From: Tetraselmis striata
Lineage: Eukaryota; Chlorophyta; Chlorodendrophyceae; Chlorodendrales; Chlorodendraceae
Length of the DNA: 64,000 bases
Direction of reading: 5' to 3'
Assembly (NCBI GenBank): GCA_006384855.1
Contig: VCJN01001097.1
Span: 142,001 to 206,000 of the forward strand
Positions 13,463-58,119 of the stretch are shown piece after piece (the first letter of the stretch is position 1; each line of letters begins with the position of its first letter). A program made the translations under genes and the position numbers. The notes below the pieces were generated by a model that saw only the letters and a program-made list of their open reading frames with translations, made no database searches and was not told the DNA's origin.

Positions 13463-14396
13463 CTATTCTATGATTGACTCCCTTGGGCGCGTCAAAGCGT
13501 CCAGCTCCCGCATGCGTTTGCCATACTCCGCCAGCTCAAACGCCGGAGACCCGCTGCCTCCAAAATCAGCTTCCAACTTGGACATGTCGAAGGTCTTCGC
13601 TAGGGCATCCGCGCCCGCCTGGTTCTTCTCAATAAAGTTTATCTTTGTGCGCGTAACGGGGTCGACAAAGGGGGAGATCGTCTTCCAGAAGAAGGAGAAG
13701 AACGAAGGGGCGTGGTACAGCTGCGCCGTGTGCAATCGCTCAGGGTAGTGGTTCTGCAGGATGCTCAGCGTCTCGCGGCTCGTCTTTAGAGGCGGCGCAT
13801 TGCTCAGGCCGTAGCCCACGAAATCCTGAAGGATCGTCAGCTGCACCGTGCCGTCCTGGTCTGCCAGCATCGAAATGGTCTCCAGCATGTACACCAGGTT
13901 CTTTATCTGCCCCTCGTGTGACTTGGAGTTTTCGTTACGCGGCCGCATGATCAGCACGTGCCTGCAATACATGCGCCAAGAATTCATCCTCCCGCAATCA
14001 TGGACCTTCAGGGCATTGTGAAAGCAGTCTGCTATGGCTGAGAGACACGGAGGCGAGGAGCATGAGGGCGCGCCTGCCGCCTTTATCCTTCTCTGGGAGA
14101 ATGAAGAGCTTGCCCGTCCTCGATTCCGCCTCGATGTCTTCCCAGCGCAGTGCCTCTGGCTTGAACTCCGCCCGCCACTGCAGAGTAGCCCTCAGCATGC
14201 CCTCTGCCTTGGCCAGGTCCCAGCCGCGCGCGCGCAAGTAGCGCAGCGCGGTGATCGGCGTGACCCAGGAGCTGCCGACTTCCGCGACGCGCCGTTGCAG
14301 CTGCTCCACCTTGCTGCGCTGCTCGTCACTCAGCGCGGAGGGGTCGTTGTACTTAGTGGCGACGGGTGCCATGCTGGCGCCAAACCTTGTCTCCAC
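13463..14396 (-). CDS. SEC14-like CRAL-TRIO lipid-transfer protein
   Basis: Two exons on the minus strand, 14396-14074 and 13961-13463, encode 273 aa. Residues about 45-80 form the CRAL-TRIO N-terminal helical region (ITALRYLRARGWDLAKAEGM, then LQWRAEF). The lipid-binding domain follows with VLIMRPRNENS, GQIKNLVYMLET and VGYGLSNAPP, then the late lipid-gate part (YPERLHTAQLYHAP, FVDPVTRTKINFIE). Known relatives exchange phosphatidylinositol and other lipids between membranes in the cytosol. The join of the exons restores GGRHVLIMRP only if the intron uses a GC donor (CAG then gcgcgc) with a normal AG acceptor. A Met eight codons further in (14372) is an alternative start. It is convergent with the VWA gene. 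Confidence 0.85.
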
Positions 14397-14912
14397 AGGT
14401 GTCTGGTGCTATGGCGACCGGACTGCGAGAGGGGCGGCAGTGTTCAGCTCGCCGAGCCAGTGGGTGCCGCTGCGGTGCGGCAAGGCCGGTCGGATCGACG
14501 CGCCACCCACGTGGCACGCCAAGTCCCTAGTCGCCGTGGCGGACAGCAAAGCTACAGGCTGGGCACACTTGTCTAATCTTCAGACGTATGAACGCATGGG
14601 CTTGCTGCCTGCTGCGGCCCCGCTGCGCCGCTGGCCTCCGTTGTCTGACGTCTGCCGTGCCGAAAATTGGACGGTGCAGCTGCTCGTCGCGGATCGGCAT
14701 CGTCCGCCCGCATGCCGCGCTGTCGAATAAATGAAATAATGCACATCGTTCGTGGAGACTCGTACTACCTGTACTTACTGGGGTACCACCCGCGCCCCCT
14801 CCCGACGAAGACACGCGACAGATCTCGCGATTAGCGACGATATCATAACGAGGGATGAATATATTACGGACTTGTTTTAGTACATATATGAGGACGATCA
14901 TAAACACCGGTA
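14397..14912. other. 5' flank of the CRAL-TRIO gene, no gene seen
   Basis: Presumed promoter side of the minus-strand CRAL-TRIO gene. Open frames here lack recognisable motifs or codon bias. The sequence becomes AT-rich from about 14735 up to the start of the retrotransposon cluster. Confidence 0.5.
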
Positions 14913-15820
14913 CCATAGATGCTGCAGTACAGCGGATTATTGCTAGTTTATTTATTACATCAGGGCTTTAACAAATGCGCACTACAAACAGAACTAACAA
15001 CTATGAAAGGTTGCCAGCGAAAGAGAGACATAAGCCTGAAACCAAGGTCGAGCAGGAGGCCGGGGAGCCAAGAACCACGGAGGGGTCAAGGGAACCGGGA
15101 AGTCGCCAAGCTGCCAGGAACCAAAGGGACCACGCACTGCCCCGGGGTAGGCCATCAGCCGCGGCGAGGACGCTTGCAGCCAATGACCCGGGTCATTGCA
15201 ACACAGGCCGACGAGCGACGCGACGCAAGCGCAGGAGCATCATCACGTACCGCGCGCGCGGCCGTGATCCCGCCAAGAACGTTGTATGCATGCGCCATGT
15301 TGATGAGCAACTAAGGAGAAACGGCGGCGCCACGCAGACGAGAGCTGGCCATTTTTTGGCCAGTGTGTGTGTGGCTAGCTTTCGCGAGCTCCATCAAGAA
15401 GGCCTCAGCGTGCGAGGCCAGCGAGCCTAACTCGGAAACGGCGACAAGAACAAAGCGAAGCATGCCGGCGGCGTTTCGGACACCCTCGCCATACTTCTGG
15501 ATTTTGTGGCGCTTTGCGGCCCGCAATGCAGTCGTTGGATCCGAGCTTGACACGCCGAGGATAGGTGCAATGGTGGTATCGACAGCAACCGTGTTCCCGC
15601 GGATACCACCATACCCAAAAAGTCCAACATCGGCCGGCCGGCCGGCCGTCGCTGCACAGCTTCGGGAGATAAACAAGCACGGGTCCGTGAGGATCTGTAC
15701 TCCCACGCCAGCGCGGATTTCACATCGTGGCAAACGTCGGAAAGGCCATGTGCCGCCCACTCGTGTGTGGCGTGATTGGAGTCGCCCCCAGAGCAACGTG
15801 CAACGTGATCAGCGGATCAG
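14913..15820 (-). mobile_element. RLE-type non-LTR retrotransposon, copy C: 5'-truncated 3' end
   Basis: This is the 3' part of the element, minus strand. The frame at 15796-15311 encodes the restriction-like endonuclease (RLE) domain that non-LTR elements of the R2/CRE/NeSL type use to nick their target: DVGLFGYGGIRGNTVAVDTT, with the catalytic-type Asp in VAVDTTI and Lys in AAKRHKIQKY, then RFVLVAVSELGSLASHAEAF. This copy keeps the cleanest RLE frame of the three. It is cut off near 15820, where copy A begins, and lacks the reverse transcriptase. Its 3' UTR is about 95 nt shorter than those of copies A and B. Confidence 0.8.
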
Positions 15821-15828
15821 CACGTGAC

Positions 15829-18800
15829 CAGCGGATTATTGCTAGTTCTTTTTGGTTGCAAGGAGAGCGTCAAGAGAATGTACGGAAAGTACTGGGGAAG
15901 GAAAAAGCCTACATTTATGAAGCAGAACCGGATGATCGCTTACATCAGTGCTTTAACACATGCGCACTACAAACAGAACGAAAAGCAACTAAAAATAAAA
16001 GGTTGCCATCGAAAGAGAGACATAAGCATGAAACCAAGGGTCAAGCAGGAGGCCACGGAGCCAAGAACCAAGGAAGAGTCAAGGAAATAAACTGGGAAGT
16101 CGCCAAGGAACCATAGGGTCAAGGGAAGCATTGAAGCCAAGGAACGACAAGAAAGACCGAAAGGGAAACATGAATTCAATGGGGACCACCGCCCTGGGGT
16201 AGGCCATCAGCCGCGGCGAGGACGCTTGCAGCCAATGACCTGGGTCATAGCAACACAGGCCGACGAGCGACGCGACGCATGCGCAGGAGCACCATCACGT
16301 GCCGCGCGCGCGGCCGTGACCCCGCCAAGAACGTTGTCTGCATGTGCCGTGTTGATGAGCAAGGAGAAACGGCGGCGCCACGCAGACGAGAGCTGGCCGA
16401 TTGTCTTGCATGTGTGCTTGTGGCTAGCTTTCGCGACATCCACCAAGAAGGCCTCAGCGTGCGGGGCCAGCGAACCGAACTTGGAGACGGCGACAAGAAC
16501 AAAGCGAAGCATGCCGGCGGCGTTTCGGACACCCTCGTCATACTATTGGATTTTGTGGCGCTTTGCGGCCCGCAATAATGCAGTCGTGGGATCCGAGCTT
16601 GACACGCCGAGGATAGGTGCAATGGTGGTATCGACAGCAACCGTGTTCCCGCGGATACCACCATACCCAAAAAGTCCAACATTGGCCCTCCGGCCGTCGC
16701 TGCACAGCTTCGGGAGATAAACAAGCGCGGACGGGTCCGTGAGGATCTGGACACCTACGCCTAGGGCGGTCTTACTGGCGTGGCAAACGTCGGAAAGGCC
16801 ATGTGCCGCCCACTCATGTTGTGCGGCGTGATTGGAGTCGCCCCCATAGCGATAACGTGCCACGTGATCAGCGTACGCGACCGCCCAAGCCGAAGGAGTG
16901 AATTCCACGCCAGCATCCTCAACACGGGCCAGCATGCCTTGTACCGAGAAAGAGCAAAAAGCACAAGAGCATGGCTCGCCTAGGAAGAGGACAGGAGCCG
17001 CCGGAAGGCCAAATGGGCGGCAAGCAACAACGCGGAACATGGAAACGTAGTACTCATGGGAACGCTCACGGACTTCACTAAGGCGACCCTCACTTGCATC
17101 AGTCACAAGGAGCGCTATCGCATCGCGTAAGAGACGGCCCCGGAAGCGGTTACTGTCAGGGCCGCTTGTAGGCATACGCGCAGCAAGCTTTGCGAAGCGG
17201 ACAGTGTGGGTGTGGTGGCTCAGGGTTTCCTGGAATTTCCGCATGGAGTGCAAGGGGAAGTCCGAGTAATGCGGGATAGCTTGGAGGTCGGCCGCCGGGC
17301 GCATCGCATGCAGACGCCGGCTCAGGCCCAACGGCCGAGTAGCTGGCACGGGCAACCGGAGAGCGCTTGGAGAGGAGCAACTCTAGGGCAGAGGCCAACG
17401 GCCCCGCTAGATCCTCGAGCACCCCGTCTCCAAACTCGTCAACGACACGGGTATGAGCAGCGCGAAGCTCGACAGCCCACATCGGCGCCGACAACCGCGT
17501 TATTGCCGATGCCGAGGCCGAGAAATTGCACGGGAGGGACAGCTGCGTGCGCATGGAGGGCGTATCCAAGCAAATCGAGGCGAACACCCCAAATGCCGGC
17601 GAGCGATGAAAACGCGGCAGGGTCTGCATCTTCAAGGAAGGACGTAATGGTGTCGCCATACCCCTCAAAGCGACCCAAGCCCCGAGGCGTGGAGCGGAGG
17701 TGGTGGCCTAAACGGCGGCCGCAAACTTTCAGCAAACGAGTAGCGGTGTGGGAGTGGAAGTGGTCGGCCAAACCGATAAGCCGGGAGCCAAATTGGTGAA
17801 AATTTTCCCGTTTTGTCCAACATGTCCCAGGCGAAAGCAGCCGATGAGCCCACATGGGGAACCGAGCACCTTGATTCCGGACGAGGAGGCTGCAACATCA
17901 TGCAACAAATACCCAAAAGGAAGGGCGCCGAACGGGGACGAAGAGCCAAGCTGACAATACGTACGCTTGTCGTCTGCGAATAGTGACGCTTAATAACCCA
18001 ACGGCTGCAAAAGCGGACGGGGCCACCCACGTAGCAAGCGCAAGTCCGTCACCAATGCCGACCAGGTTGGTGTCGTCAGAGAAATCTGCCAACACCGAGT
18101 GACTGGGGGCAGCCGCGGCGATGCGAGCATGCACTCGGGCAGCGACGGCGGACGGAGAACAAGATGGGGCCGAGGACGCAACCCTGGCGGACCCCTCGAC
18201 GGCTTGGAATCTGCACGGAGGGGCCGGGTTGGGAGCCGTCGAAAACGTACATATGGGACTCTTTGACCATAAAGCACGATCGCCGAACGGAACAGAGGCT
18301 GCCAAACAGGGTCCTCGAGCAGTGTGCGGAACATTATGGAGTGGTAGGAAGAATTGAACGCGTTCCCGGCGTCGAGCTCCACCAAGACGAGGGATGGATC
18401 CGAGTCTAGGAGAGATCGCATAAAGAATTGAACTAATTCCACGTGGAATTAGATTCCACGTGGAATTAGATTCCACGTGGCGTGCACGCCACTTTTAAAG
18501 CCAAAATCGAAGAGGCCGCAGGCGGCAAGCCATTGGGCGATGGGGTCGCCATGAGCGCGCAAGAGGACGCACATAGCGTACCGGACGAGCACGCTGCCGA
18601 TGCCAATGGGCCAAACGGACCCCTTCATGTCTCCGGCATTAAGTTCCATCGCATTGCGCTCCGCCGACGTGAACTTCTTATCTAGGGGCATCAAGGTAGC
18701 GGAGGAAAGGAAATGGGCGACGCCAAGAGGGACCTCCGCATTCGCGATGACCTCAGCGATGCCACGGAGGTGGAAGCGCGAGCAGAGGACACGGAGAGCC

Positions 18801-19470
18801 TCGAAGCGGATGCCAAGGAGGAACGGGGCGGAACCAGCATTGGGGCTGCCGGACAACACGTCGCAAACGTCCACCGAGGCCTCAGGGGAAGTGTGGCGGT
18901 AAAACGAGAACGGATCCGGGAGTGCGCAAGGAACATGGTCCGGGGTCTGGGGATGCATGCAACCGGAGGGGCTCGACGTGAAGCCGCAAGCCAACGGGCG
19001 CGAGCGGGACTGAGTACAGGGCGGCATCTGAATATCTGTCGCGGATTCTCTGTCGCTCGATACATAATAAGATGAGTACAGTGTACCCTATACTACGAGT
19101 ATAGTTGAGAGACGCGCGCGGCGACACAACGGCGGCGCGCGGATCGCGGAGCATGCAGACAACCTCGTCGGCCTTCGACCGGGGACAGGATTGGCCATTG
19201 AAAACCCTTCGCGCTACTTGCAGCATCTCAACGACGGCCTTTTAGGCAGCGATATAGTTACGGAAAGCCCTGCGGGGTTCTGAGGCGACGCTCCATTATT
19301 CAGGGGCTCATCAAGCATGACGATCGCTCGTCGTATGCCGATATACATGCAGATATTGTGCGTTGTTGGTGAGTAAATAAGCAGATTAGGGTATAAGTAC
19401 GATACCCCGGACGTTCGGCATGTGGCAGTCGGGGAGTTGGAGTGGCGCGCGGCGGAGCGGCGGCTAGCAG
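15829..19470 (-). mobile_element. RLE-type non-LTR retrotransposon, copy A (degenerate, nearly full length)
   Basis: From right to left on the minus strand it shows: an untranslated leader (about 19450-19060); an N-terminal region (about 19030-18480); a reverse transcriptase with GDMKGSVWPIGIGSVLVR, LVELDAGNAFNSS, SRRGVRQGCVLGPILFS and an intact catalytic FSDDTNLVG (about 18060-18080); a thumb/connector region; then the RLE domain (about 16750-16220) with VAVDTTIAPILGVSS and AAKRHKI. Several frame breaks separate these blocks, so it is not coding-competent. It pairs with copy B at high identity over its whole length. A run of CACGTG palindromes at 18436-18480 is unique to this copy. Confidence 0.85.
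18436..18480. repeat. Triplicated palindromic CACGTG unit inside copy A
   Basis: Three tandem 17-nt units of ATTCCACGTGGAATTAG type replace what is a single short segment in copy B (about 23163-23175). Each unit is itself palindromic around CACGTG. Confidence 0.85.
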
Positions 19471-20290
19471 CAGAGGGCGATATCGGAAATCACCAAAATA
19501 AAAGGCAATCAGAAAGGTCCTCTACATCGACTGCGGGGTGGAAGCAGTAACATGAGAAGACGCAGAGTGGGCACGAGCACACGCATCAGACTTGGCCATC
19601 TGCACACCGGCAGAGAGAATGCCGCCCAGGGTACCATGCACGCAAGCCGAGACCCGCTGCAACAGCCCCCGCCGTGTGCGCGACAGGTGACGGCGGAACT
19701 CAGCAGGTTGGCCGGCGACAAAGTTTCGAAGTGCCTGAACGGATTGACCACGAAGAAAGCAAGAGGTCGGGGCGGAAGGACCGCCAGGGAAGTTGCGCAC
19801 AGCCAACAGCACCGCGAAGATGTAGACCACCGTCAAAGCGGACTTCCCGAGTCGGCCGCGGTCCTCAACCACAAAAGGGTAGTACCGGTGAACACCCTGC
19901 ACTGGGGCGGAAGACGCCCGGTCCGCTGCCAACTTAGCATGCTCCGCCTCGGTCGCCGCGATTCCCGGGATCCACCAGCGGGGGTCGTTGCTCCAAGTGG
20001 GGGTCGTGGAGGACACGCACGCGAAGTCGATCATGTAATTGCACGCCGCCCCTCCCCACCCCGCCAGCGTCAGGTCCGACGGCCGCGAGCGGTCCGCTGG
20101 GCGCAGCCCACTCGTCTCAAGGGTCAAGTCGCCGGCTCCCGAGCGGTCCCGGTCAAGCACCACCCCCGCATCAATTGCCACAGATGCCCACAGATTCTTC
20201 AAAGCGGTATGCATGCGGTGCTTGTAGTTCGCTACGGGGCATATGGGTAGATGATCCACGATGAAATCCGTAGCGCTCCGGTTCGAGCCA
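19471..20290 (-). mobile_element. RLE-domain fragment of a second non-LTR retrotransposon family
   Basis: A single open minus-strand frame (20259-19522, about 245 aa) encodes an RLE-type region clearly different from copies A-C: RPSDLTLAGWGG, then NYMIDFACVSSTTPTWSND with the catalytic-type Asp, PGIAATEAEHAKLAAD with the Lys, and YYPFVVEDRGRLGKSALTVV. The element is 5'-truncated at about 20290, where copy B begins. Its inferred 3' end near 19466-19490 (minus-strand reading CGATATCGCCCTCTGCTGC) matches two short inserts near 53.3 and 53.7 kb. Confidence 0.7.
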
Positions 20291-20304
20291 TCCGTAGAGC
20301 GAAG

Positions 20305-23300
20305 CCATAGATGCTACAGTACAGCGGATTATTGCTAGTTCTTTTTGGTTACAGGGAGAGCGTCAAGAGAATGTACGGAAAGTACTGGGGAAGGAAAAAG
20401 CCTACATTTATTAAGCACAACCGCATGATCCCTTACATCAGCGCTTTAACACATGCGCACTACAAACAGAACGAAAAGCAACTAAAAATAAAAGGTTGCC
20501 ACCGAAAGGGAGACATAAGCATGAAACCAAGGGTCAAGCAGGAGGCCAGGGAGCCAAGAACCAAGGAAGAGTCAAGGAAACCGGGAAGTCGCCAAGCTGC
20601 CAAGGAACCATTTATAGGGTCAAGGGAAGCATTGAAGCCAAGGAACGACCAGAAAGACCGAAAGGGAAACATGAATTCAATGGGGACCACCGCCCCGGGT
20701 AGGCCATCAGCCGCGGCAAGTACGCTTGCAGCCGATGACCCGGGTCATAGCAACACATGCCGACGAGCTTCGCGACGCATGCGCATGAGCACCATCACGT
20801 GCCGCGCGCGCTGCCGTGACCCCGCCAAGAACGTTGCCTGCATGTGCCATGTTGATGAGCAAGGAGAAACGGCGGCGCCACGCAGACGAGAGCTGGCCGA
20901 TTGTCTTGCATGTGTGCGTGTGGCTAGATAGCTTTCGCGACATCCACCAAGAAGGCCTCAGTGTGCGGGGCCAGCGAACCGAACTTGGGGACGGCGACAA
21001 GAACAAAGCGAAGCATGCCGGCGGCGTTTCGGACACCCTCGTCATACTATTGGATTTTGTGGCGCTTTGCGGCCCGCAATGCAGTCGTTGGATCCGAGCT
21101 TGACACGCCGAGGATAGGTGCAATGGTGGTATCGACAGCAACCGTGTTCCCGCGGATACCACCATACCCAAAAAGTCCAACATCGGCCGGCCGTCGCTGC
21201 ACAGCTTCGGGAGGTAAACAAGCACCGACGGGTCCGTGAGGATCTGGACATCTACGCCTAGGGCGGTCTTACTGGCGTGGCAAACGTCGGAAAGGCCGTG
21301 TGCCGCCCACTCATGTGCGGCGTGATTGGAGTCGCCCCCATATATAGCGACTAGCCACGTGCCACGTGATCAGCGTACGCGACCGCCCAAGCCAAAGGAG
21401 TGAATTCCACGCCAGCATCCTCAACACGGGCCAGCATGCCTTGTACCGAGAAAGAGCAAAAAACACAAGAGCATGGCTCGCCTAGGAAGAGGACAGGAGC
21501 CGCCGGAAGGCCAAATGGGCGGCAAGCGACAACACGGAACATGGAATCGTAGTACTCATGGGAACGCTCACGCACGGACTTCACTAAGGCGACCCTCACA
21601 TGGAGGATCAGTCACAAGGAACGCTGTCGCATCGCGTAAGAGACGGCCCCGGAAGCGGTTACTGCCAGGGCCGCTTGTAGGCATACGCTCAGCAAGCTTT
21701 GCGAAGCGGACAGTGTGGGTGTGGTGGCTCATGGTTTCCTGGACTTTCCGCATGGAGTGCAAGGGGAAGTCCGAGTAATGCGGGATAGCTTGGAGGCAGG
21801 TCGGCCGCCGAGAGCATCGCAGACGCCGGCTCAGCCCCAGCGGCCGAGCAGCCGGCACGGGCAACCGGAGAGCGCTTGGAGAGGAGCAACTCTAGGGCAG
21901 AGGCCAACGGCCCCGCTAGATCCTCGAGCACCCCGTCTCCAAACTCGTCAACGACACGGGTATGAGCAGCGCGAAGCTCGCTTCGACAGCCCACATCGGC
22001 GCCGAGACGTCGGCGTCGGCATCGGGCGCCAATGCTAAGGTGGCCAAAGCCCGGTAAATCGAGGACGCCCCAACAAGGTAGAGGCTATGAGGGTTGGATA
22101 CGCATGACGGCTCGGAAAGGAACGTGCCGGCGTCGCTCAAGGTGGCGTGTTGAGCACGGAGGAAAGTCACATCTTGACCAACCACAAGGGCCGCAGCGCC
22201 GACGTGGGAGGCATTTGCGATAACCACGTTATTGCCGATGCCGATGCCGCGAAAATGCACGGGAGGAACAGCTGCGTGTGCGTGGAGGGCGTATCCAAGC
22301 AAATCGAGGCTAACACCCCAAATGCCGGCGAGCGTTGAAAACGCGGCAGGGTCTGCATCTTCAAGGAAGGACGTAATGGTGTCGCCATACCCCTCAAAGC
22401 GACCAAAGCCCCGAGGCGTGGAGCGGAGGTGGTGGCCTAAACGGCGGCCGCAAACTTTCAGCAAACGAGTAGCGGTGTGGGAGTGGAAGTGGTCGGCCAA
22501 ACCGATAAGCCAGGAGCCAAATTGGTGAAAATTTTCCCGTTTTGTCCAACATGTCCCAGGCGAAAGTAGCCGATGAGCCCACATGGGGAACCGAGCACCT
22601 TGATTCCGGACGAGGAGGCTGCAACATCATGCAACAAATGCCCAAAAGGAGAGGCGCCGAACGGGGACGAAGAGCCAAGCTGACAATACGTACGCTTGTC
22701 GTTTGCGAATGGTGACGCTTAATAACCCAACGGCTGCAAAAGTGGACGGCGGGGCCACCCACGTAGCAAGCGCAAGTCCGTCACCAGTGCCGACCAGGTT
22801 GGTGGCGCCAGAGAAAGCTGCCAACACCGAGTGACTGGGGGCAGCCGCGGCGATGCGAGCATGCACTCGGGCAGCGACGGCGGAGAAAAAGATGGGGCCG
22901 AGGACGCAACCCTGGCGGACCCCTCGACGGCTTGGAATCCGCACAGAGGGGCTGGGTTGGGAGCCGTCGAAAACGTACATATTGGACTCTTTGACCATAA
23001 AGCACGATCGCCGAACGCGACAGAGGCTGCCAAACAGGGTCCTCGAGCAGTGTGCGGAACATTATGGAGTGGTAGAAATAATTGAGCGCGTTCCCGGCGT
23101 CGAGCTCCACCAAGACGAGGGATGGATCCGAGTCTAGGAGAGATCGCACAAAGAATTATTGAACTAATTCCACGCCACCCTTAACGCCAAAATCGAACTG
23201 GCCGCAGGCGGCAAGACATTGGGTGATGGACTCGCCATGAGCGCGCAAGAGGACGCGCATAGCGTACCGGACGAGCACGCTGCCGACGCCAATGGGCCGA

Positions 23301-24150
23301 ACGGACCCCTTCATGTCTCCGGCATTAAGTTCCATCGCATTGCGCTCCGCCGACGTGAACTTATCTGGGGGTATCAAGGTAGCGGGGGAACGGAAATGGG
23401 CGACGCCAGTAGGGACCTCCGCATTCGCGATGACCTCAGCGATGCCACGGGGGTGGAAGCGCGAGCAGAGGGCACGGAGAGCCTCGAAGCGGATGCCAAG
23501 GAGGAACGGGGCGGAACCAACATTATTGGGGCTGCCGGACAACACGTCGCAAACGTCCACCGAGGCCTCAGGGGAAGTGAGGCGGTAAAACGAGAACGGA
23601 TCCGGGAGCGCGCAAGGAACATGGTCCGGGGTCTGGGGATGCAACCGGAGGAGCTCGACGTGAAGCCGCAAGCCAGCGGGCGCGAGCGGGCGTGAAAAAG
23701 GGGCGGCAGGTGAATATCTGTCGCGGATTCTCTGTCGCTCGATACATAAGTAATAAGAGTACAATGTACCCTATACTACGAATATAGTGGAGAGACGCGC
23801 GCGGCGACACAACGACGACGGCGCGCGGATCGCGGAACATGCAGACAACCTCGTCGGCCTTCGACCGGGGACAGGATTGGCCATTGAAAACTCTTATTCG
23901 CGCTACTTGCATCATCTCAACGACGGCCTTTTAGGCAGCGATATAGTCACGGAAAGCCCTGCGGGGTTCTGAGGCGACGCTCCATTCAGGGGCTCATCAA
24001 GCATGACGATCGCTCGTCGTATGCCGATATACATGCAGATATTGTGCGTTATTGTTGGTGAGTAAATAAGCAGATTAGGGTATAAGTACGATACCCCGGA
24101 CGTTCGGCATGTGGCGGTCGGGGAGGTGGAGTGGGGCGCGGGGTAGCGGC
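20305..24150 (-). mobile_element. RLE-type non-LTR retrotransposon, copy B (degenerate, nearly full length)
   Basis: Near-identical partner of copy A, same strand and order of parts. The 3' UTR starts with the shared CCATAGATGCT-type sequence at 20305; the RLE domain is about 21230-20700; the reverse transcriptase lies about 23400-22700 (RPIGVGSVLVRYAM, LVELDAGNALNYFY, SRRGVRQGCVLGPIFFS). The catalytic FSDD of copy A is FSGATNLVG here, so both catalytic aspartates are lost. An in-frame stop also separates the VELVQ and FFVRSLL segments near 23160. The leader ends near 24150, where homology to copy A stops. Confidence 0.85.
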
Positions 24151-24159
24151 GGGCTGTGG

Positions 24160-25791
24160 CGGACAACATGAAGTAGGCGCATGTGTTGTTCGGTGCTCGC
24201 GCCGTCTCAGTTCGGCGTAAACATCTCCGCAACTACCACGGGGCTCCGTGCTCATCATCCACGGCGGTGTCCACCTCATTGCCGAGAAGCTCGACCCACA
24301 CGCCATGATCGTCCACACCGACTGCCGCAACGCATACAACGAGGCGTGGCACCACACCATCATCCAACGCCACATCGATTGCTCTCTTCTCCCCGGCATC
24401 GATACTTGCGCTCATGTTGGTCTGCTCGTGGACGATCGATCCGCCCGTGTGCGGTCGGAGGACGGCGCGCGTGTAACAGGGTGCGCCGTTGGCCACGATG
24501 TTTTTTGCGTGGCAATTTCCCCCGAGGTCGAGGAGTGCGACAACACGCCGGAGGGCACAAGGGGGCGGCGCGCTTTAACGCCGACTACGATGGAGGTCTT
24601 GTGGGTCTACCGGAGCACGACACACTGCCGGCCCGACTTCACTGGGGCTGTTGGAGGTGCGCTTCGACAAGATGCACGCGTACAACGCCGACATGGAGGC
24701 CGCGCACGGCGCGAAGTCCCCGGCCGACATCGAGTGGGCAGAGCTGGATGGCCACCACGGTATCATCCCAGTCATCAACTTTCCGCTCGGATAGCTAGCT
24801 AGGGTATAGTGTGCATGTCTACATATATAGGTACGGAAGATAGGTAGTAAGAAGGGCGACACGAGTAGGAGGTGAACGCAAGCCTGAGCAAGATTCTGCC
24901 CGCCAAGCCTAGCCGTCGTACATCCATGCCCTTCATCAACACGCATTGGCCATGCGCAAGCATTGCAGCATGCCGCTCATGTCGGGGTATCGGCCCCGCA
25001 ATTGCCTCATCCCGTCCGAGGTGGATGCCTGCGCAAAGGCGAGGGATGCCACCGTCCTCACGGGGCCGGAGGGGGCGGAGGGGGTGCTATGGGTATCTTT
25101 AGACCCATGCACAGTGTACGGCACCGACACCAATTCGATGGTCACCAATTTTTTGGCAGGGCTCTTGCGCGGCCCAAAAGATCATGACCTCACGGGAAAG
25201 GGAGGCGGCCACTTTGAGCAAGAATATAGTGGCCATGGCACGCAGTAGCCTCCACCTCCCCACTCGGCTGAAGGGAACTGGTATCCGCCGCATGGCTATC
25301 GTCCGTGATATGCTGCCGCCTTCATCGGCTGCATGAACGAAATCCTCCCGCCCGGTTCCTCACTAGCAGGATCCCCGACACTACCAACACCCATGGTTTC
25401 TTTGACCCGCATCTTGAGTCCGTACTTGGCCGAGGTAGCTTCAACTCACCTTCTACCGCCCACCAGTATGATCAAATTCTCTGCGATGCTCGTGGGTCAA
25501 CTACCCGCTGCGCCGTGGCGGTGCGGGATAGGCGTGCTGCTGGGGGGCGGCGTTTTCATGCGGCTACTGATCCACCTATGCGATGCATGCGCCCGTGTGT
25601 TAGAGCTCGGAAAGCGGAGGCTGCGTTAGGCTCGCAGAAGGAGCTGACATCTTTCTTGGATTAGGACAACAAATATCGGTATCAGAATGAGGGGGTTGGG
25701 CACTCTCCCTGTCAATCGCTCTGTCGCTTGCATTGTTAACATATATCTTTTTCGGCCAGCATAATCTCAATATGGCGTCGGGCATGCATAT
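24160..25791 (+). mobile_element. Third non-LTR retrotransposon family (family B), reverse-transcriptase part
   Basis: Plus-strand fragments carry reverse-transcriptase hallmarks. HGGVHLIAEKLDPHA and HTDCRNAYNEAWHHT (about 24253-24350) match the D-x-x-NAFN region. VRSEDGARVTG (about 24450) and HGIIPVINFPLG (about 24755-24793) follow. LPTRLKGTGIRRM (about 25260) and a region with HGFFDPHLESVLGRGSF (about 25390-25450) follow again. Frames are broken. The same LPTRLKG-GIRR block recurs on the minus strand near 63400-63470. The element is interrupted at 25791 by the copia insertion and continues at 29512. Confidence 0.7.
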
Positions 25792-26235
25792 TGTTAATGT
25801 TGACACAAGGCGGCTGCGGCTGACAAACAAGCAGCAGCAGGTGAGTGTGAGTGCACAGGACGGCAACACGACCTTGCAGGTCGAGTGAGGAGCTGGTGGG
25901 AAGAACGAAGTGATTTACAAAGGCTAGGTTTCTCCAACTTGGCTGGTGGGCATGTTTGCAACATGCCTAGCCGGTCTGTGGCATCCTGGCCACTGAGATG
26001 GCCTCTAGTAGTTACAGTTGTACCTTGGTTCTGGTACGTTTGATGTAACTTTTCTAGTACTTTATGCTTTGTTGGTGTGGACATGAATGGTCAACAGTCA
26101 CTTGAGCCTGTTGCCCATCTGAGCGCAATCCTAAATGTACCCAGGTGCAGTACCACTGTGGCAGCCTGTTAGAGCAGCAAGAGCAGCTACAAGTCACAGC
26201 AGTTCAGCGCTCTCATCAGCATATTAGTATTAACA
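25792..26235 (-). repeat. 3' LTR of the copia element
   Basis: 444-bp long terminal repeat, TG...CA bounded. It is preceded on its outer side by the target-site copy CATAT (25787-25791). Confidence 0.95.
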
Positions 26236-34500: not shown

Positions 34501-37500
34501 GGGGCCGCCACTACCAGACAGGCTAGCAGTCCCGCCCCAAAGGAGCCAGCACCACGGGCCTCGGACACAGCTGAAAGGATACGGTCTCCCGCCTTTCCGG
34601 ATCCTTCGAACCACCCATGCACTGCCGCCTTCCCCGTCCCCCTTGTCCAACAAGAGGCGGGAGAATGCGGCAGCCTGTCCCCATCCCATGAGTCCGTCCG
34701 CCTGGGCGTGCGTGTTGAGCCGCCGGTGCCTGTGCCGGCCGCAGGTTGACAACGCAGCGGCTGGAGATGAACATGATCCCATACGACCCTGACAGCATCG
34801 AGCTGCAGGTCAGTCGGCTCGCGGAGGCCAGGCCGTACCTCGGCAACTGCGCAACGCCGTGTCATGGAAACTCACCTTGCCACACCATAATGGTGGCACT
34901 GTCCCGCCACGTGTATCGTTATGTTACGACCTCTGCTACCTGGGCAAACAAGGCCAATACTGTTCCGCTTCGTCTTGCTGATACACAGGCTGACAGTGTT
35001 GACACTGTATCATTACCTGCTACTGCACCCTCCTGTCCCTGCGCTACCACTGCATACCTCGTTTGTCTTTGTGTCTCCCTGGTGGAGACACGAAGATGGA
35101 GACTGTCTCACTGGCAAGCGGCCGCCGTTACCGCCGTGTGTTGCGCAGACACGAAAGACGCGCGACGAGCTCGACATTGAGCTGCTGATGGCGGAGGACG
35201 AAGTCATTGCTGCGCTGCCGGCGCCGCCAGACTTCTTCCCAAACGTGCAGGTGCGCCGCTCCCGCATGCCGAGTCCCGCCTCGTCTGCGGCCCCGGAGGT
35301 TTGGGCCCCCGGCGCAATGCTGCCTCCCCGCTGAGGCGCCGCGGCCCCGCCCCCGGCGCTGCAGCCGCCAGCGGGCGGCTTCCGGCTGCGCCGCGTGGAG
35401 AGCACCTGCGCCTCGCACCTCCGCGAGGTGAAGGAGCTGCACGAGGAGGAGGCGCACCTGCTGGGGCGCGAGTCGGTTGCGCCCGACTCGGAGGAGCTCC
35501 AGGAGGTGCAGCGCCGGCTGGTGGAGCTCGGGCCGGCGCCGCGCCGGATCCCGCTATCGGAAAGGGCCGAGATGAAGAGCCGCCGTGCGGCGCGCCGGCG
35601 CGTGGAGAACGGCGACGTGAGCGGCCCCTATCCTGCCCCCTGCGCAACCCTAAACCTGCAGGGCCGCGGCGTGCCGCCTCGCGTGCCGCGCTGAGCATTG
35701 ACTCCATGAGCGTGCTGGCGCGCGGAGCGAGTACGGCTGAGGCAGCGCGGAGCGCGAGCATGGTCGGTGTCAGATGCTGAGGTCTGGTTGTGGCCGGTGC
35801 CGCAGTACGGCGTGCCGCGAATCCCCAAGGCGGTCCCGGTGCTGGTGGAGGACCCGCTGCGGGAGGAGGATGCCGCCGTGTTGCCAGCGGCGGAGGCGTC
35901 GCGCCGGCAGCGCATCGCCAAGCAGGGCTACTACGTGAAGCTGCTCATGAACGGGAGCTACTTTGCCGGCAAGTCCAGCGTCCACAGCATGCGCGAGGAC
36001 TTCACCCTTGACTTCAACGATGTCTTCCGGTCCGCCCCCTCCCCGCGGATGCGCTGCCCCGATGACCGCGGCCGCGCCTGTGCGCCCCCCACCCCCCCCC
36101 CGCTGAGCCGCCACGCTCTGCCCGGCGCACCAGGGTGAAGGTCCGGCGGTGGCCCGAGCAGGCGGTGCTGCAGCTGTGGCGAAAGGGCTTGGTCCGCGAC
36201 GCCTTTGTGTGCGACATCCCGTTCAACGTGCCCGGCGTCGGCATCGGCGCCGCGCACAAGGACCCCTTCCCCGTGCAGTACAACTGGAGCAGCCTCGACC
36301 GCTTCACCCCGCCGTGGCCGCTGCCAGGTGAGGAAGCGCCCGGCGGCCGTGCGCTGCTGCCGCCTGATGCGGCTGCCCTTCTGCCGGGGCGGCTGACGCG
36401 CCGTTGCCGGGCCTGCTGCGGCGCGCCAGGCCCGGATGAGACACAGGCTGCGATCTTCCGAGACCCGAACCTCTTCGGGAGCGGCAGCCTCTGGATTCGC
36501 TGCGCCTGGATTGCAGATGACGAGGACCCTTCCATGATGGTGAGCGCAGCCGCCCCGGGTGGGTGCGGAACCTCCGCACGACGCGCGCTTCTTTGGCGGC
36601 AGATGGATGGGCACTGCGGGGGGCGAGGCCGGCCGCACCGGGCTGTGCCGGCACCTGCTCCTGCTGTCTCGCTGTCCGACTCGGGAAGTGCTGGGTGCTG
36701 CCCGGCGCAGGGCTACACCAACCCGCTGGCAGCGGGCGAGTGGGAGGAGCAGGAGGCGCCGGCCATCATGCCTGTGCCGCCCTTTGCCAGGAACCACCTG
36801 GCGCTGCGGGGGGGCGGCCACGGCGTGGGTCAAGTGAGCAAGGCGCGCCTCGCGGAGTGGCTCGGCCGTGCCGGGCTCGACCCCAACGACCCCCGCAACG
36901 CATGGTGGGAACCCCCCGCCACCGCCCCTGTTGGCCGCCGCCTGTCCACAGTGAGAAATGCCGCAATTTCGCACACTAGCGCGGGCCCCCTTCACTTGAA
37001 TCCTCACACGATTTGGCGCGCGGTCGCGCCATCCGCCCCCCTTCCCTCGCCCTTCCACGCGCTGCCTTGGGGCGTCGCCCGGCTGACGGAAGCCATCTCA
37101 ACGGCCGTCGCCCGCTGAGCTCCCCACAGGTACCTGGAGCTACTCAAGACGCGCGAAGCGCAGGCGGCGGCGGCGGGGCGCATCGTGGATGGCTACTTCC
37201 GCCTGGACACCGCCGAGGAGGTTTGACCCGTCACCTGCCCCCTCCCCCCTCCCCCCCCCCAACAAGCTTTGTGCGCCCGTCTCACCGGACGGGGGGTTCT
37301 TAGCGTCGATTGCTGACGCACGCCTGTCCGCTGGGGGTAGGTGCTGCTGCGGCCCACGCCGGCGGTGGACAACAAAGCCAAGTTTCTGACCTCGCGCTGG
37401 GAAATGGGCCCCGGGTATAGCAGCCTCTTGTCGCAGCGGGAGGTGAAAATGTCGACCTTCGAGATGACGGAAGCAGCGGTGAGCGCTCCCTTGCCATGTA

Positions 37501-40500
37501 GGGTGCGGACGCGGGTCGGAGCGTAAGGCGGCTCTGCAGCTCTGACTCGCGCTCCACGCGCTGCACAGAAGCACCCCGCGCAAGGGCGGCCGTTCATAGA
37601 GGCGCCGCTGGACAGCGACATGCTGGCGGAGGAGGCGTTGGCGCAGCTGGACACGCTGAGGGCGTACGACCTGGAGGATGCTGCGTGAGCGCCGCAGCCT
37701 CCCCACTGCGCGCTACCTTGAGAAGCTCGGCGTGTGTGTGTCAGTATGAATGCCCTCGCTGCCCTTTCAGCCACCTCCTCTGACTACCCCATACTCCTCC
37801 TATCACCACCTCCCCGCACCCGGCGGGTCCCTCTGCAGGGACATCCGGCGCGACCCGCTCATCCGCATGTTTGGGCGCTCCGGCGTGGGGCAGCGCGACA
37901 CGACGAGCGCCAAGCTCCACGAGCGCGACCGCCTCATCCAGGAGTTTGTGCTCGGCATCAAGACGCGCGCGACCAGCCGCGCCAAGATCGCGCGCAAGTA
38001 CCAGACCATCCAGACGGAGGACGTGGTGCGCGACATCATGCTGCCGGAGTTCCGCTTCACGCTGAACCTCGCCATCTTCCGCCCCGTGCGCCGCTTTGGG
38101 CCGGTGCCGCGCAAGGTGGGCGTGCTGGGGCCGTGCCGGTGGCGACGTGTGCGAACATGCACCCCCTTGATGGAAGGAAGGGGGGTGATTGCCCCTCTCA
38201 AAACGGGACACGGACCCCCCGCGCAGTCCGGTTGAGAACACGGCGATCCGCCCCAGCTGCACGCCAGTAGTCGATGTCGGACGTGTTGTCTCATAGGAGG
38301 GGAGTCGGGAGTACGCGAGTTGGCGCGATGAGGGTCACAGGGAGGCCGGACAGATCGCGATGTCGTTCTGCTGGCTCTGTCCCAGTTGGTGTCCCCCCCC
38401 CCCCCCCCCCCCCAGGCTGGGCTCTCCCTTGGGACCTGAGCCTGGAAGTTGTGCCTGTGCGCCCGCCCTCGGCAGGCGGCCACCGCTGTGTCGCAGCCCA
38501 AGACCATCTCGCTGTCCGTCACGGTCATCAAGGCCACAAACCTCCCGCAGCGCGCGCACGCCTCGGGCGCGTCGGGGCTCACCGGCGCCGGCAGCCCGCG
38601 GCGCAACCGCCGCCGCCCGCTGCTGGAGGCCGGCGAGGACGAGGAGGAGGAGGAGGGGGAGGACGACTTTGGCGGCAGGGATCGCGGCGGCCGGCGCCTG
38701 GCCCAGTTTGGGGCGGGCGCTGCGGCCAAGGCCACCGACCCCCACACGCTGTCGCCCTTTGTGGAGGTCAGCTTCCAGGTGGGGCCCACTGCCAGCAGCT
38801 TTCCGTGCAACGCCTGTCGGCTGCCCCGCCCGCGCGGTACCAACACGCGATCCACGCCCCCATGCTGCCCTACAGGGCCGCCAGGAGCGCTCCGGCAGCG
38901 CCACCAGCTCGGCAGGCAGCTGCGTGTGGAACGACCAGGTGGGTCTGCCGTTGCCCCTGTGCCTCCCCGCATTCGCACACCACTCGCACATGTTGGCCAT
39001 CTCGTGCGCGCCACCGGGAACGGGCTGCCTGACGCCAAGGGCGGCCTGTCTCCGCAGGTGATGCTCCCCTTCAGGCTGCCGAACCAGACGGAGTTCTCCC
39101 CCACCGCCATGGCCGAGTGCAGGGACGAGATCGTGGTGTCCGTCTACGACAAGGTCCCCACCCCCTTCTTCCCCCCTGACCCTCAAAACTATAAACTATG
39201 CCGGCTGGGCTGGCGTTATTTAAACGCTCCACACCATAACAACGTCTAAAGCTATGTGTGTATTGCCCCGTGCGATACCACCTGATCAAAGTCAACTCTC
39301 AGCAACGGATATCTTGGCTCGTACAACGATGAAGAACGCTGCGAAGTGCGATACGTAGTGTGAATTGCAGAATTCCGTGAACCATCAAGTCTTTGAACGC
39401 ATATTGCGCTCGTGGCCTTGGCCAAGAGCACGCCTGCCTCAGAGTCGGTTTTCCTTGCGCGTGAGGGTTGATAGGGCACCACGCGCTGGAAGTGTTGAAA
39501 TCTCTTCCAGCTTTGTCTTTGATGCTATACATGCCGGCTGTCGTACGGCCCGGCTGCACGAGCCCGCATAGGGCCCACTCATGAAAGCGCGTAGCGTGGC
39601 GCCCTCTGACGGCCAGGTCGCGCTGCCAACACCGTGCGGGCTGGCAGGTGATGCGCGACGAGACGGTGAAGGCCCGCCGCGAGCCGGACAACGAGGGCGG
39701 CGAGAAGCTGTGCATCCACTGGACCAAGCGACTGCTCGGCACGCTGCGCCTGAGCGCCGGGGCCGTCTACCGCGCCATCCAGATCTCTGGAATATTTGAG
39801 CTGGAGGTGCGAGCCGTCTCGCCCTTAGCACCTAATCACCTTCGATCACCGGCTTCCTGACCTGCGCCATGACGTTGCTGTCCTGCTCCCCCCCCCCCCT
39901 TCTTCTTCCCTCATCTCCGCGCGATTCGCGGGCAGATCCCACCCATCCTGGCCGGCTACACGCCAACCACCTCCTCCTCCACTGGCACACCTCGCAACCC
40001 GACGCTGCAGCTGGTGGTGGAGTACAGCCCCCAGCTGAGCGTTGCGCCCCAGACCCCTGAGGTGCGCCCCCCCCCCCCCCCCCCCGGCACGCACCCTGGG
40101 GTAGTCGCCACACGCCACTGCGCACCTGACGGAGCCCCTGCCCGTGGGTATCACCCAAGCACGCGGCCCCCTATGGCCCCCGCTGCCTCTTATGGCATTC
40201 TCTGATGCCCTTGTTGGCACGCGCAGGACCAGCTGCGTTCCTTGGAGGCGGAGGACATCACCCGCCACGCGGGCCGCTGGCTGGGCGAGCTCCTTCAGCT
40301 CAAGCAGTGCCAGCGGCGGTACATCAAGGTGCCGCCTGGCGCCCTCTGCCCTGAGTGCCGGCGCGCGTGCACGCTGATGCGCCGTTGCTCGAGCCGCGCC
40401 TGGGAACTGAGCCCGCGGTGGTGGCAGGCGATGGCGGTGGACGACCAGGGCAAGTCGGCGCTGCTGTGCCGCTACGTGGGCGCGTCCTTTGAAATCCCGG

Positions 40501-42248
40501 AGGGCTACAGTGAGGGCGACCGCGCGACGGTGATGCACCGCCTGGCGCGCCTCGTGTCGCTGGTGCCGTTTGTGCACGACAACGACATGCGACGGCGCCG
40601 CCACGACATGTGGACCAGGTGCCCATCCCCTCGAGCATGCCCCGCAGTCGCGGGAAGCAGGCGGGGGGAGTCAGATGCATGCCAACCTCCCTGCGCCTGC
40701 AGTCAGACCATCCCCCCCCCCCCCCCCCCCCTTCCCCCCCTTCTCCTCGCAGCTGCGCCAAGTGCCTCCAGCTGGCTATGGGCGACGGCGAGGAGCACGC
40801 TACACTGCTGGCGGGCTACTTCCGCACCATCGGCGTACAGGCGCGCCCCTCCCGCCTCTGAGCATCCACACCGACCCTGTGGGCAAACAATGGGCTGAGG
40901 ACCCCCATAGCATGGGCCCCGGAGTTCGTGAGCTGGTCGCTAAACACTGCCGCTGACGTGGTGTGCTGTCGGCAGGCGTATGTGGTGCTGGGCACGTCCC
41001 TGACAGAGGCGGAGGCGGCGTGGGTGCTGACGACGTCGCTTAGTGCCGGGACGGGGACGGAGAGCCACAAGGGCGACAGCCTGGAGCCCGGCTCCCTGCA
41101 GATGTGGGACCCGACGTCCGGGCGCTGCTACAGCGTCACCGACCCCGCCTGCCAGATGCGCATGGTGCGCGCCGGCCGCGCCCGTCGCCCCGCTGTCGGC
41201 CTGCGGTGGGCCGCCCCCGCGGCGCTGACGCCGCTGTGCCCGCGCGCAGGTGGGCGCCGTGTTTGACCACACCAACATCTGGGCCAACGTGCAGTCGGAG
41301 GGGCTGCCGTCCGACATGAAGTGGGACCTTGCCAGCACACGGTGCGCCCGGCCGAGCTGTGCAGCAACCGCAAGAATGAGGATGTGCAAACCGGTTTGGG
41401 AAGGGTGGGGGGACGTTGGACTGACTAGACCGACTCGCTGGGATGGGGCGCTGCCTCCAGGTGCTGGCGGCCTTTCTTCGGCGCTGCCCTGCAGTACCGC
41501 GCCCTGCGCACGCTGCAGAAGGAGATCACGCGCCGCGCGCACTACCGCAAGGAGTCGCTGGGGAAGGTGTTTTACGACGGCCTGGAGAAGCGCGCGGAGA
41601 ACTGCACCTGGAGCGTGCTCACCGACCTGCGGAAGCGCCGGCTGCGGCAGAGCACCGAGCGTAACACCCGCTTCGCCCAGGAGTTTGTGCGGCGCGACTT
41701 TTTCGGCGACAAGGACAGGCTGCTGGAGCTGGAGGCCTTTTACGAGGCGCGAAGCGGCACCTCGGACGAGGCCGGCGGCAGCCAGGCGGAGCGCTGCCTT
41801 GCGCTGTCCCGCGCACACAACGAGGCGCTGCGCGCGAGGCTGGGCAGCCGCAAGGTGCTTCAGGTGTGTCCTCGGCGGAGGAGACGTGTCCCGCCCATAG
41901 CAGCGCTGCCCCCTGCGCAGTGGCTGTCCTCAAAGCCACGACGAGTTTCGATTTTGTCGCGACATTCGAAGCACCACCCACAGCTTCATGCAGTTGTGCA
42001 CCCCGTGGTGGCAGAGGTTATGATGGTATGTCTGCTTTGTTTCCGGCGCGCAGGACTTCATCTGCCACGTGTTTTGCCTGCCGATGGCGGACAACTTCCG
42101 GGATCAGGTGGAGGCGGTGCTGGCGCGCACCGGCCTCGGGGTGCTGCCAAACGACTGGCAGTATGCCGTCGTGGCGCATGTGGCGCAGAAGAAGGTGCCG
42201 TACGTGTGCGGAATCTGGGTCTACGTGGCCGCCATCCGCCAAGCGTGA
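31543..42248 (+). CDS. CC2D2A: CC2D2A, ciliary transition-zone protein with C2 domains
   Basis: Predicted 1737 aa from 32 exons: 31543-31646, 31729-31853, 31958-32106, 32249-32370, 32767-33094, 33554-33772, 33897-34001, 34091-34243, 34381-34496, 34745-34808, 35149-35250, 35365-35616, 35782-36029, 36134-36327, 36430-36539, 36711-36904, 37130-37220, 37341-37478, 37569-37684, 37839-38115, 38476-38778, 38876-38938, 39058-39153, 39648-39806, 39936-40061, 40227-40328, 40428-40618, 40753-40840, 40976-41164, 41250-41341, 41461-41863, 42054-42248. All phases agree. The N-terminal half is charged and coiled-coil-like. At residues about 614-760 is the CC2D2A-specific N-terminal C2 ([20 protein letters not shown], then [12 protein letters not shown]), followed by [11 protein letters not shown] second C2 lies about 1070-1320 ([28 protein letters not shown]). 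The transglutaminase-like region follows ([40 protein letters not shown]). The family builds the ciliary gate with other transition-zone proteins. Intron 28 needs a GC donor. Introns 5 and 23 carry rDNA-related sequence. Confidence 0.88.
31860..31888. repeat. Poly-C tract in CC2D2A intron 2
   Basis: About 29 consecutive C between exons 2 and 3. Comparable C or G tracts lie in CC2D2A introns near 31655, 33126, 33282 (G), 38395, 40069 and 40713. Confidence 0.95.
33430..33553 (-). repeat. Antisense copy of the rDNA spacer-like segment, CC2D2A intron 5
   Basis: Read on the minus strand, this matches the sequence that follows the 5.8S copy at 39500-39630. TGAAATCTCTT-CAGCTTT is shared, then TCTTTGATGCT, then CATGCCGGCTGTC, then CCCGGC-GCACGA, and finally GCCCTCT with GGCCAGGT. 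There are substitutions and an 11-nt insertion. The 3' splice site of the intron (ATTTCAG before 33554) lies inside the shared block. Confidence 0.75.
39285..39450 (+). rRNA. 5.8S rRNA copy inside CC2D2A intron 23, probably a pseudogene
   Basis: Essentially full-length 5.8[65 protein letters not shown], and the CTGCCTCAGAGTCGG end. Two conserved places deviate from the usual eukaryotic sequence: GCTGCGAAGTGCG where GCAGCGAAATGCG is usual, and CATCAAGTC where CATCGAATC is usual. About 50-100 nt of ITS1-like sequence precedes it and ITS2-like sequence follows to about 39640. No 18S or 28S is present, and the whole lies between exons 39058-39153 and 39648-39806, so it is a dispersed rDNA fragment and not part of an rRNA operon. 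Confidence 0.85.
39451..39640 (+). repeat. ITS2-like spacer attached to the intronic 5.8S copy
   Basis: Follows the 5.8S copy without a break and runs almost to the acceptor of exon 24 (GGCTGGCAG at 39647). It is the segment whose antisense copy occurs in intron 5. No 28S start was found before the exon. Confidence 0.6.
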
Positions 42249-57649: not shown

Positions 57650-58119
57650 CGGCCGGCTCGACACGGTCGGTCGCCGTCATGTCGTCCGGGACGCGCGCCG
57701 GTCCGCGCTACTCGTACTCGTACCAGTACTTCTGCGAGATTAAGAGATTTCCTCGGGGTCCTGAGCTTGGTGGCCGCTCGAGAGCGCGCTCGCTGCCTCA
57801 TCAGACGGCGCAGATTCGTCTGCCATCCCGTTGCTGAAGCTGCACAGCACGTCCGAGGATCACCCACACACACACGTGCTCGCGTGGCCCGGACTCTGAA
57901 CCGTGTGCGCATCACTCATCCATCCCGCCTTAAGCGGGATGCGGGCTGCTTTTAGGCGGCTTGCTGTGTTGATTTTCTAATTCTGGGGAACTGCCCTTTT
58001 TGTAATTCACACCAGTACTTCTGCGGGATGCGGGCCGCTTTTAGGCGGCTTGCTGTAGTAATGTTGATTTTCTATAATTATGGGGAACTGCCTTTTTTGT
58101 AATTCACACCAGTACTTCT
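57650..58119 (+). mobile_element. Family B retrotransposon 3' end with tandem terminal duplication
   Basis: The segment 57770-57933 matches, in opposite orientation, the 3' part of the element at 61.9-62.1 kb (GGCCCGGACTCT core). The terminal unit, with a GCCGCTTTTAGGCGGC-type hairpin and TGTAATTCACACCAGTAC, occurs twice in tandem at 57934-58022 and 58023-58119. Confidence 0.65.

Follow-up and report, generated by a model that had tools for sequence, protein, structure and literature searches.

An intron of a CC2D2A-like gene in Tetraselmis striata combines a 5.8S rDNA fragment with a copy of a SINE-like repeat

A 494-nt intron of a CC2D2A-like gene, within the 64-kb stretch of Tetraselmis striata DNA analysed here (the window), is a composite of a 5.8S rRNA sequence, an ITS1-type flank, and a copy of a dispersed repeat. 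With a probability of roughly two in three, we favour a history in which the gene already had a short spliceosomal intron that then received two unrelated insertions: part of the nuclear rDNA unit (the end of ITS1, all of the 5.8S, and the start of ITS2) and a SINE-like element, probably antisense and bounded by a 7-bp target-site duplication. Both inserts would now be non-functional intron ballast that splicing presumably removes, and the intron is probably still delimited by the donor, branch-point region, and acceptor that it had originally. The parts of the interval and its neighbouring exons are, in order:

39058..39153, plus strand: upstream exon of the CC2D2A-like gene (gene model)
39154..39201, plus strand: 5′ part of the intron, containing the donor GTCCCC, a run rich in pyrimidines, and CTGAC (39176-39180) as a candidate branch point
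39202..39293, plus strand: 3′ end of ITS1-type sequence, contiguous with the 5.8S both here and at C532:75106-75243
39294..39447, plus strand: full-length 5.8S rRNA, probable pseudogene (RF00002, 155.4 bits)
39448..39488, plus strand: ITS2-like remainder of about 41 nt, continuing from the 5.8S 3′ end
39482..39488, no strand assigned: CGCGCTG, the left-hand copy of a probable 7-bp target-site duplication, exactly at the repeat end
39489..39618, minus strand: copy of a SINE-like dispersed repeat found in at least 39 other places, tail-like end on the left
39619..39625, no strand assigned: right copy of the probable duplication CGCGCTG, exactly at the repeat end
39626..39647, plus strand: last part of the intron, carrying the acceptor GGCAG, either ITS2 or original intron (from sequence and reading frame)
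39648..39806, plus strand: downstream exon of the CC2D2A-like gene (gene model)

The gene model, joined by eye, comprises 11 exons from 38876 to 42248, which are free of stops up to the final TGA (42246-42248). As the first-pass annotation had it, the GT..AG interval at 39154-39647 on the plus strand joins two in-phase exons (phase 0, between residues DK and VMRD); read through unspliced, the frame meets a TAA stop at 39247-39249. The nine other modelled introns measure 85-190 nt, and one of them (40841-40975, CAG followed by GCGCGC) is apparently GC-AG. The spliced protein matched Pfam family PF24656, the CEP76-type peptidase-like domain (E 1.2e-33), with no second Pfam family at E 0.01 or better and no solved structure at E 0.001. 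Upstream of the model, an ORF at 36066-37118 matched CC2D2AN-C2 with an E value of 3.4e-4, below the curated cut-off. Since we take CC2D2A to be defined by a C2 domain together with a CEP76-type peptidase-like domain, these two matches make it the likely host gene. The original naming is supported, though not beyond doubt. The exons flanking the intron presumably resemble vertebrate CC2D2A. Elsewhere in the window, AT skew reached about 0.25 at 16001-24000, compared with 0.06 or less in most other 4-kb steps; no stop-to-stop frame as long as 300 aa was present in 14000-26000, and a two-copy tandem repeat with a 97-nt unit occupied 57934-58119.

The 5.8S sequence (39294-39447, plus strand) matched Rfam RF00002 at 155.4 bits (cut-off, 42; E 7.1e-40) over model positions 1-154 of 154, which bears out the earlier claim of a complete 5.8S rRNA in the intron. 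This was the sole Rfam match above cut-off across the 64-kb window, so at that threshold neither 18S nor 28S lies beside it there. On its left, 39202-39339 aligned without gaps over 138 nt to C532:75106-75243, with nine substitutions (6.5%), six of them in the 92 ITS1 positions and three in the 46 positions of the 5.8S. Because two separate loci have the same ITS1/5.8S junction, the left flank (39202-39293), which had been called ITS1-like, can be regarded as confirmed by this comparison as genuine ITS1-type spacer. The C532 piece ends within the 5.8S and adjoins an AC-rich tract. The match has its left limit at 39202, where either copy could be the one that is broken; reading this shared breakpoint as a pre-rRNA 5′ end is consequently unprovable. 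A piece of rDNA or pre-rRNA did land in the CC2D2A-like intron; it may have come in by retro-insertion or by copying of DNA.

The proposed ITS2-like right flank did not hold up in the same way: only the approximately 41 nt at 39448-39488 can be ITS2, and its continuation past 39488 is ruled out by the dispersed repeat at 39489-39618. An ITS2-like hairpin (GCGCGUG/CACGCGC) begins right after the 5.8S and folds best with 4-5 nt that are assigned here to the tail of the repeat (fold z, -2.59 for 39448-39495 versus -1.00 for 39440-39487). The rDNA makes up 50-58% of the intron and the repeat 26%; the idea of an intron that is largely 5.8S plus ITS does not hold, as an unrelated short repeat takes about a quarter. 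Where the Rfam consensus has CauCGAauc, the window 5.8S reads CAUCAAGUC, which turns the conserved CGAA into CAAG. An alteration at such a conserved position, judged against the Rfam consensus, is in keeping with a decayed pseudogene. Both the window and the C532 copies carry TACAACG against the consensus cGcaUCG, which may be the species' own 5.8S or go back to a shared ancestor. With gene exons on either side and the CGAA altered, the locus does not have the makeup of a functional gene in an 18S-5.8S-28S unit.

Searches of the species' own genome covered 224 Mb in 2903 contigs. The 5.8S family search, which scored 39 of 5294 candidates, returned the window copy and, at C532, a weak match of 45 nt that fell short of the cut-off. 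A DNA search with 39290-39450 gave the window, C532, and no further candidate, in a procedure that skips words very common in the genome and so leaves absence unproven. Queries with the 5.8S and a typed 28S stretch did not bring up the species' own rDNA unit in the assembly; baseline patterns for 5.8S or ITS had no exact match (three patterns against viral contigs, one against genome contigs), and five ORFs near the C532 fragment matched no Pfam family. Two other stretches of rRNA sequence were seen. The end of contig C1291 carries about 330 nt of eukaryotic 28S rRNA (L043 1503-1831; L045 4493-4829), which stops abruptly on its inner side after CAGGGATAACTGGCTTGAGGC and gives way to other DNA; roughly 4 kb from it, an ORF weakly matches RT_RNaseH (E 0.0068, under the cut-off), and the piece is possibly the edge of an rDNA array or the site of an insertion in 28S. 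Contig C1010 (116 kb) has a bacteria- or organelle-type LSU-5S-tRNA cluster (L042 907-3172; in the wider stretch L046, 3900 of 9401 bases are N), which may be organelle DNA, a nuclear insert of organelle DNA, or contamination.

The same searches bear on an assembly chimera, that is, rDNA reads misjoined into the gene. They brought up no other 5.8S above cut-off in the assembly, so rDNA reads may have troubled the assembler. A misjoin, however, would be expected to bring in intact rDNA with long flanks, whereas this piece looks decayed (CAAG for CGAA), sits between exons that are in phase on both sides, and has a second, diverged counterpart at C532. We regard such an artefact as highly improbable. 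A search for a second haplotype without the insert, made with a 1033-nt query that starts with the downstream exon, yielded the query itself and four hits of 30-40 nt, all within one C-rich stretch of the query.

The right part of the intron belongs to a dispersed family. In a whole-intron search, query positions from 342 (mostly to 466) matched many places; among the matches listed there were 41 places, 39 of which were neither the window nor the C532 rDNA. Searching with 39475-39647 recovered the window and at least 39 other places at 79-89% identity, a lower bound since 40 of 477 first-look candidates were scored. The alignment holds 30 loci, the window's own included, and several are near-duplicates with long shared flanks. 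This many dispersed copies is what a SINE or other non-LTR element would leave. By eye, repeats of the TTTGAAA/TTTGACA type and of varied length stand at one end of the element, whereas its other end varies between copies. The repeat is thus probably a non-LTR element lying antisense to the gene with its tail on the left, an orientation read from the tail. As to a Pol III promoter, a GGTTCG was noticed by eye, and Rfam at E up to 1 reported nothing in the intron besides the 5.8S. The window copy differs from the consensus at 16 of 126 aligned positions (12.7%; its first part is poorly aligned), and the 18 other copies compared differ by 6.4 to 15.4%. About 110 nt from another copy, L006 contains CCGTAGGTGAACC (1352-1364), which we take to be as at the 3′ end of 18S rRNA; its proximity to the repeat is probably due to chance.

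The heptamer CGCGCTG abuts the repeat exactly at both ends (39482-39488 and 39619-39625). From the 30 loci, removal of 10 near-duplicates and of 2 without clear anchors left 18 copies for an unrestricted test, in which at least 7 nt were common to a copy's own flanks in 6 of 18 cases, against 26 of 306 mismatched pairs (8.5%). Permuting the mean length over these 18 copies gave no significant excess (880 of 10000), and many of them extend further right than the place tested. Among the eight copies that stop near the end of the window copy, a subset picked after their flanks had been seen, 7 nt or more were shared in 5 of 8 versus 0 of 56 mismatched pairs (permutation p 2.5e-5); the five include the window copy, L028, which lies in repetitive sequence, and L015, which has two equally long matches, the printed one away from the tail. 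An earlier test with a shorter left range, a mismatch-tolerant score, and the window's duplication cut off gave p 5e-5. From these comparisons, CGCGCTG is well supported as a target-site duplication of the repeat.

The rDNA piece, at whose ends a check for target-site duplications had been proposed, offered no convincing one. The intron contains four direct repeats at least 8 nt long: ATGCCGGCTG (39198/39531), GGGCTGGC (39207/39638), GTGCGATAC (39270/39346), and GTCTTTGA (39389/39515). That is about the number expected for 494 random bases by rough arithmetic rather than shuffling, and we rejected them as a flanking duplication of the rDNA. The left GGGCTGGC belongs to the rDNA piece itself, as C532 has it too.

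Since the rDNA and the repeat abut, both might have arrived in one chimeric retro-insertion, with a non-LTR reverse transcriptase that was primed on the RNA of the SINE-like element and then changed template to pre-rRNA. Such products have reported precedents, in rRNA/retroelement chimeras of mammals (PMC13174262) and RNA chimeras of a fungus (PMC2104539). A template switch of this kind would place the partner RNA 5′ of the element, within a single duplication. In the LINE-1 chimeras, as reported, the RNA joins the 5′ end of the element, whereas here the rDNA adjoins the tail-like end, read as 3′, in an orientation inferred from the tail only; moreover, the probable duplication flanks the repeat alone. 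A single chimeric event is therefore unlikely, and we prefer two insertions because the rDNA sits at the tail-like side.

The splice sites are probably older than both inserts. GTCCCC, the pyrimidine run, and CTGAC lie 48 to 22 nt to the left of where the detected rDNA begins. In such algae the branch motif is CTNAC, and a second CTGAC occurs in the repeat at 39606-39610, 37 nt before the intron end. The leftmost 48 nt (39154-39201) matched no other place among the matches listed in the own-genome search. GTCCCC is an outlier, as 9 of 9 other donors of the gene model have G at +3. Two more GTs precede the in-frame stop at 39247: GTTATT (39215), which is out of phase, and GTCTAA (39244), which is in phase 0, lies inside the ITS1-like part, and would add 30 residues if used. 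GTCTAA also has C at +3 and so, by the gene's own rule, does not improve on GTCCCC, which is the likeliest, predicted donor. Within 39560-39647, one AG in phase 0 besides the acceptor was found, at 39587 in the repeat.

The unusual donor and the alternative phase-0 GT at 39244 could also mean that the interval is not spliced as drawn but is a retained intron, uses another donor, or belongs to a decaying gene. Exons that stay in frame to the final TGA and the strong domain match speak against this, and we consider it quite unlikely. The earlier suggestion that the fragment supplied the splice sites fares poorly, given a likeliest donor and branch-point candidate on the left of the rDNA and an acceptor on the right of the repeat; what remains of it is that the phase-0 GT at 39244 does lie in the ITS1-like part. 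In its general form, that suggestion would have an rDNA or pre-rRNA fragment landing in an exon and creating the intron, contributing one or both splice sites either by itself or together with the repeat. The leftmost 48 nt and last 22 nt are without assigned origin, and the atypical GTCCCC and the in-phase GTCTAA are compatible with such an event. Against it stand the donor, pyrimidine run, and CTGAC to the left of the detected rDNA, the equally poor +3 base of GTCTAA, the repeat and its own duplication between the rDNA and the acceptor, and the ordinary lengths of the nine other introns. This origin is very unlikely, and intron creation from rRNA is unsupported, its chance being very slim. 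The more specific version, in which a reverse-transcribed pre-rRNA intermediate with its 5′ end in ITS1 and its 3′ end about 40 nt into ITS2 was inserted into CC2D2A and supplied part of a working intron, with either its acceptor or, within ITS1, the donor GTCTAA, is very doubtful as well.

A pre-existing intron is favoured because GTCCCC and CTGAC lie on the left of the rDNA and the acceptor on the right of the repeat. Subtracting 137 nt for the repeat with one copy of the duplication and 246-287 nt of rDNA from the 494 nt leaves 70-111 nt, near the low end of the range of the other introns, which supports an intron of ordinary kind before the insertions. Counting against this reading, the searches did not bring up the species' own rDNA unit, so that the last 22 nt, acceptor included, might be ITS2. 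As to the order of events, the left CGCGCTG completes the hairpin that follows the 5.8S, as it would if ITS2 had been the landing site of the repeat, and we lean slightly towards the rDNA having come first. A younger repeat is not favoured by its 12.7% deviation from consensus against the 6.5% between the rDNA pieces, and the divergence figures do not show which insertion came first.

This composite intron is a new example of known things, namely dispersed rDNA pseudogenes and retroelement insertions in introns. Pseudogenes of rRNA or rDNA are described from filamentous ascomycetes, for example (PMC5555474), short rRNA pieces (5S and 28S among them) fused to LINE-1, with duplications of 7-17 bp in 20 of 27 5S/LINE-1 insertions (PMC13174262), and RNA chimeras from the rice blast fungus (PMC2104539). 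As in the ascomycetes, a diverged 5.8S-bearing copy has escaped from concerted evolution; here it is a single short piece in a protein-gene intron, whereas the ascomycete study concerns paralogs detected in whole-genome data and discusses RIP mutation (PMC5555474). The LINE-1 chimeras likewise show an rRNA fragment adjoining a retroelement with short duplications, but the rDNA here adjoins the tail side and contains spacer, and the main text of that paper has 0 occurrences of 5.8S (PMC13174262). With its short length, many copies, tail-like end, and probable 7-bp duplication, the repeat resembles a SINE inserted in an intron. Introner elements, which generate introns from transposons, also place a mobile element inside an intron; here, nothing indicates that the rDNA piece or the repeat supplies both splice sites. 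Among titles and the openings of abstracts, in a sample covering few subscription journals, none described a protein-gene intron that contains an rDNA fragment.

The locus shows that protein genes of this genome can contain nuclear rDNA pieces and tolerate them in introns. Should one of its splice sites prove to derive from the rRNA piece, it would be a rare and datable example of an intron gained from rRNA; for now it serves mainly as a warning for ITS barcoding and intron annotation.
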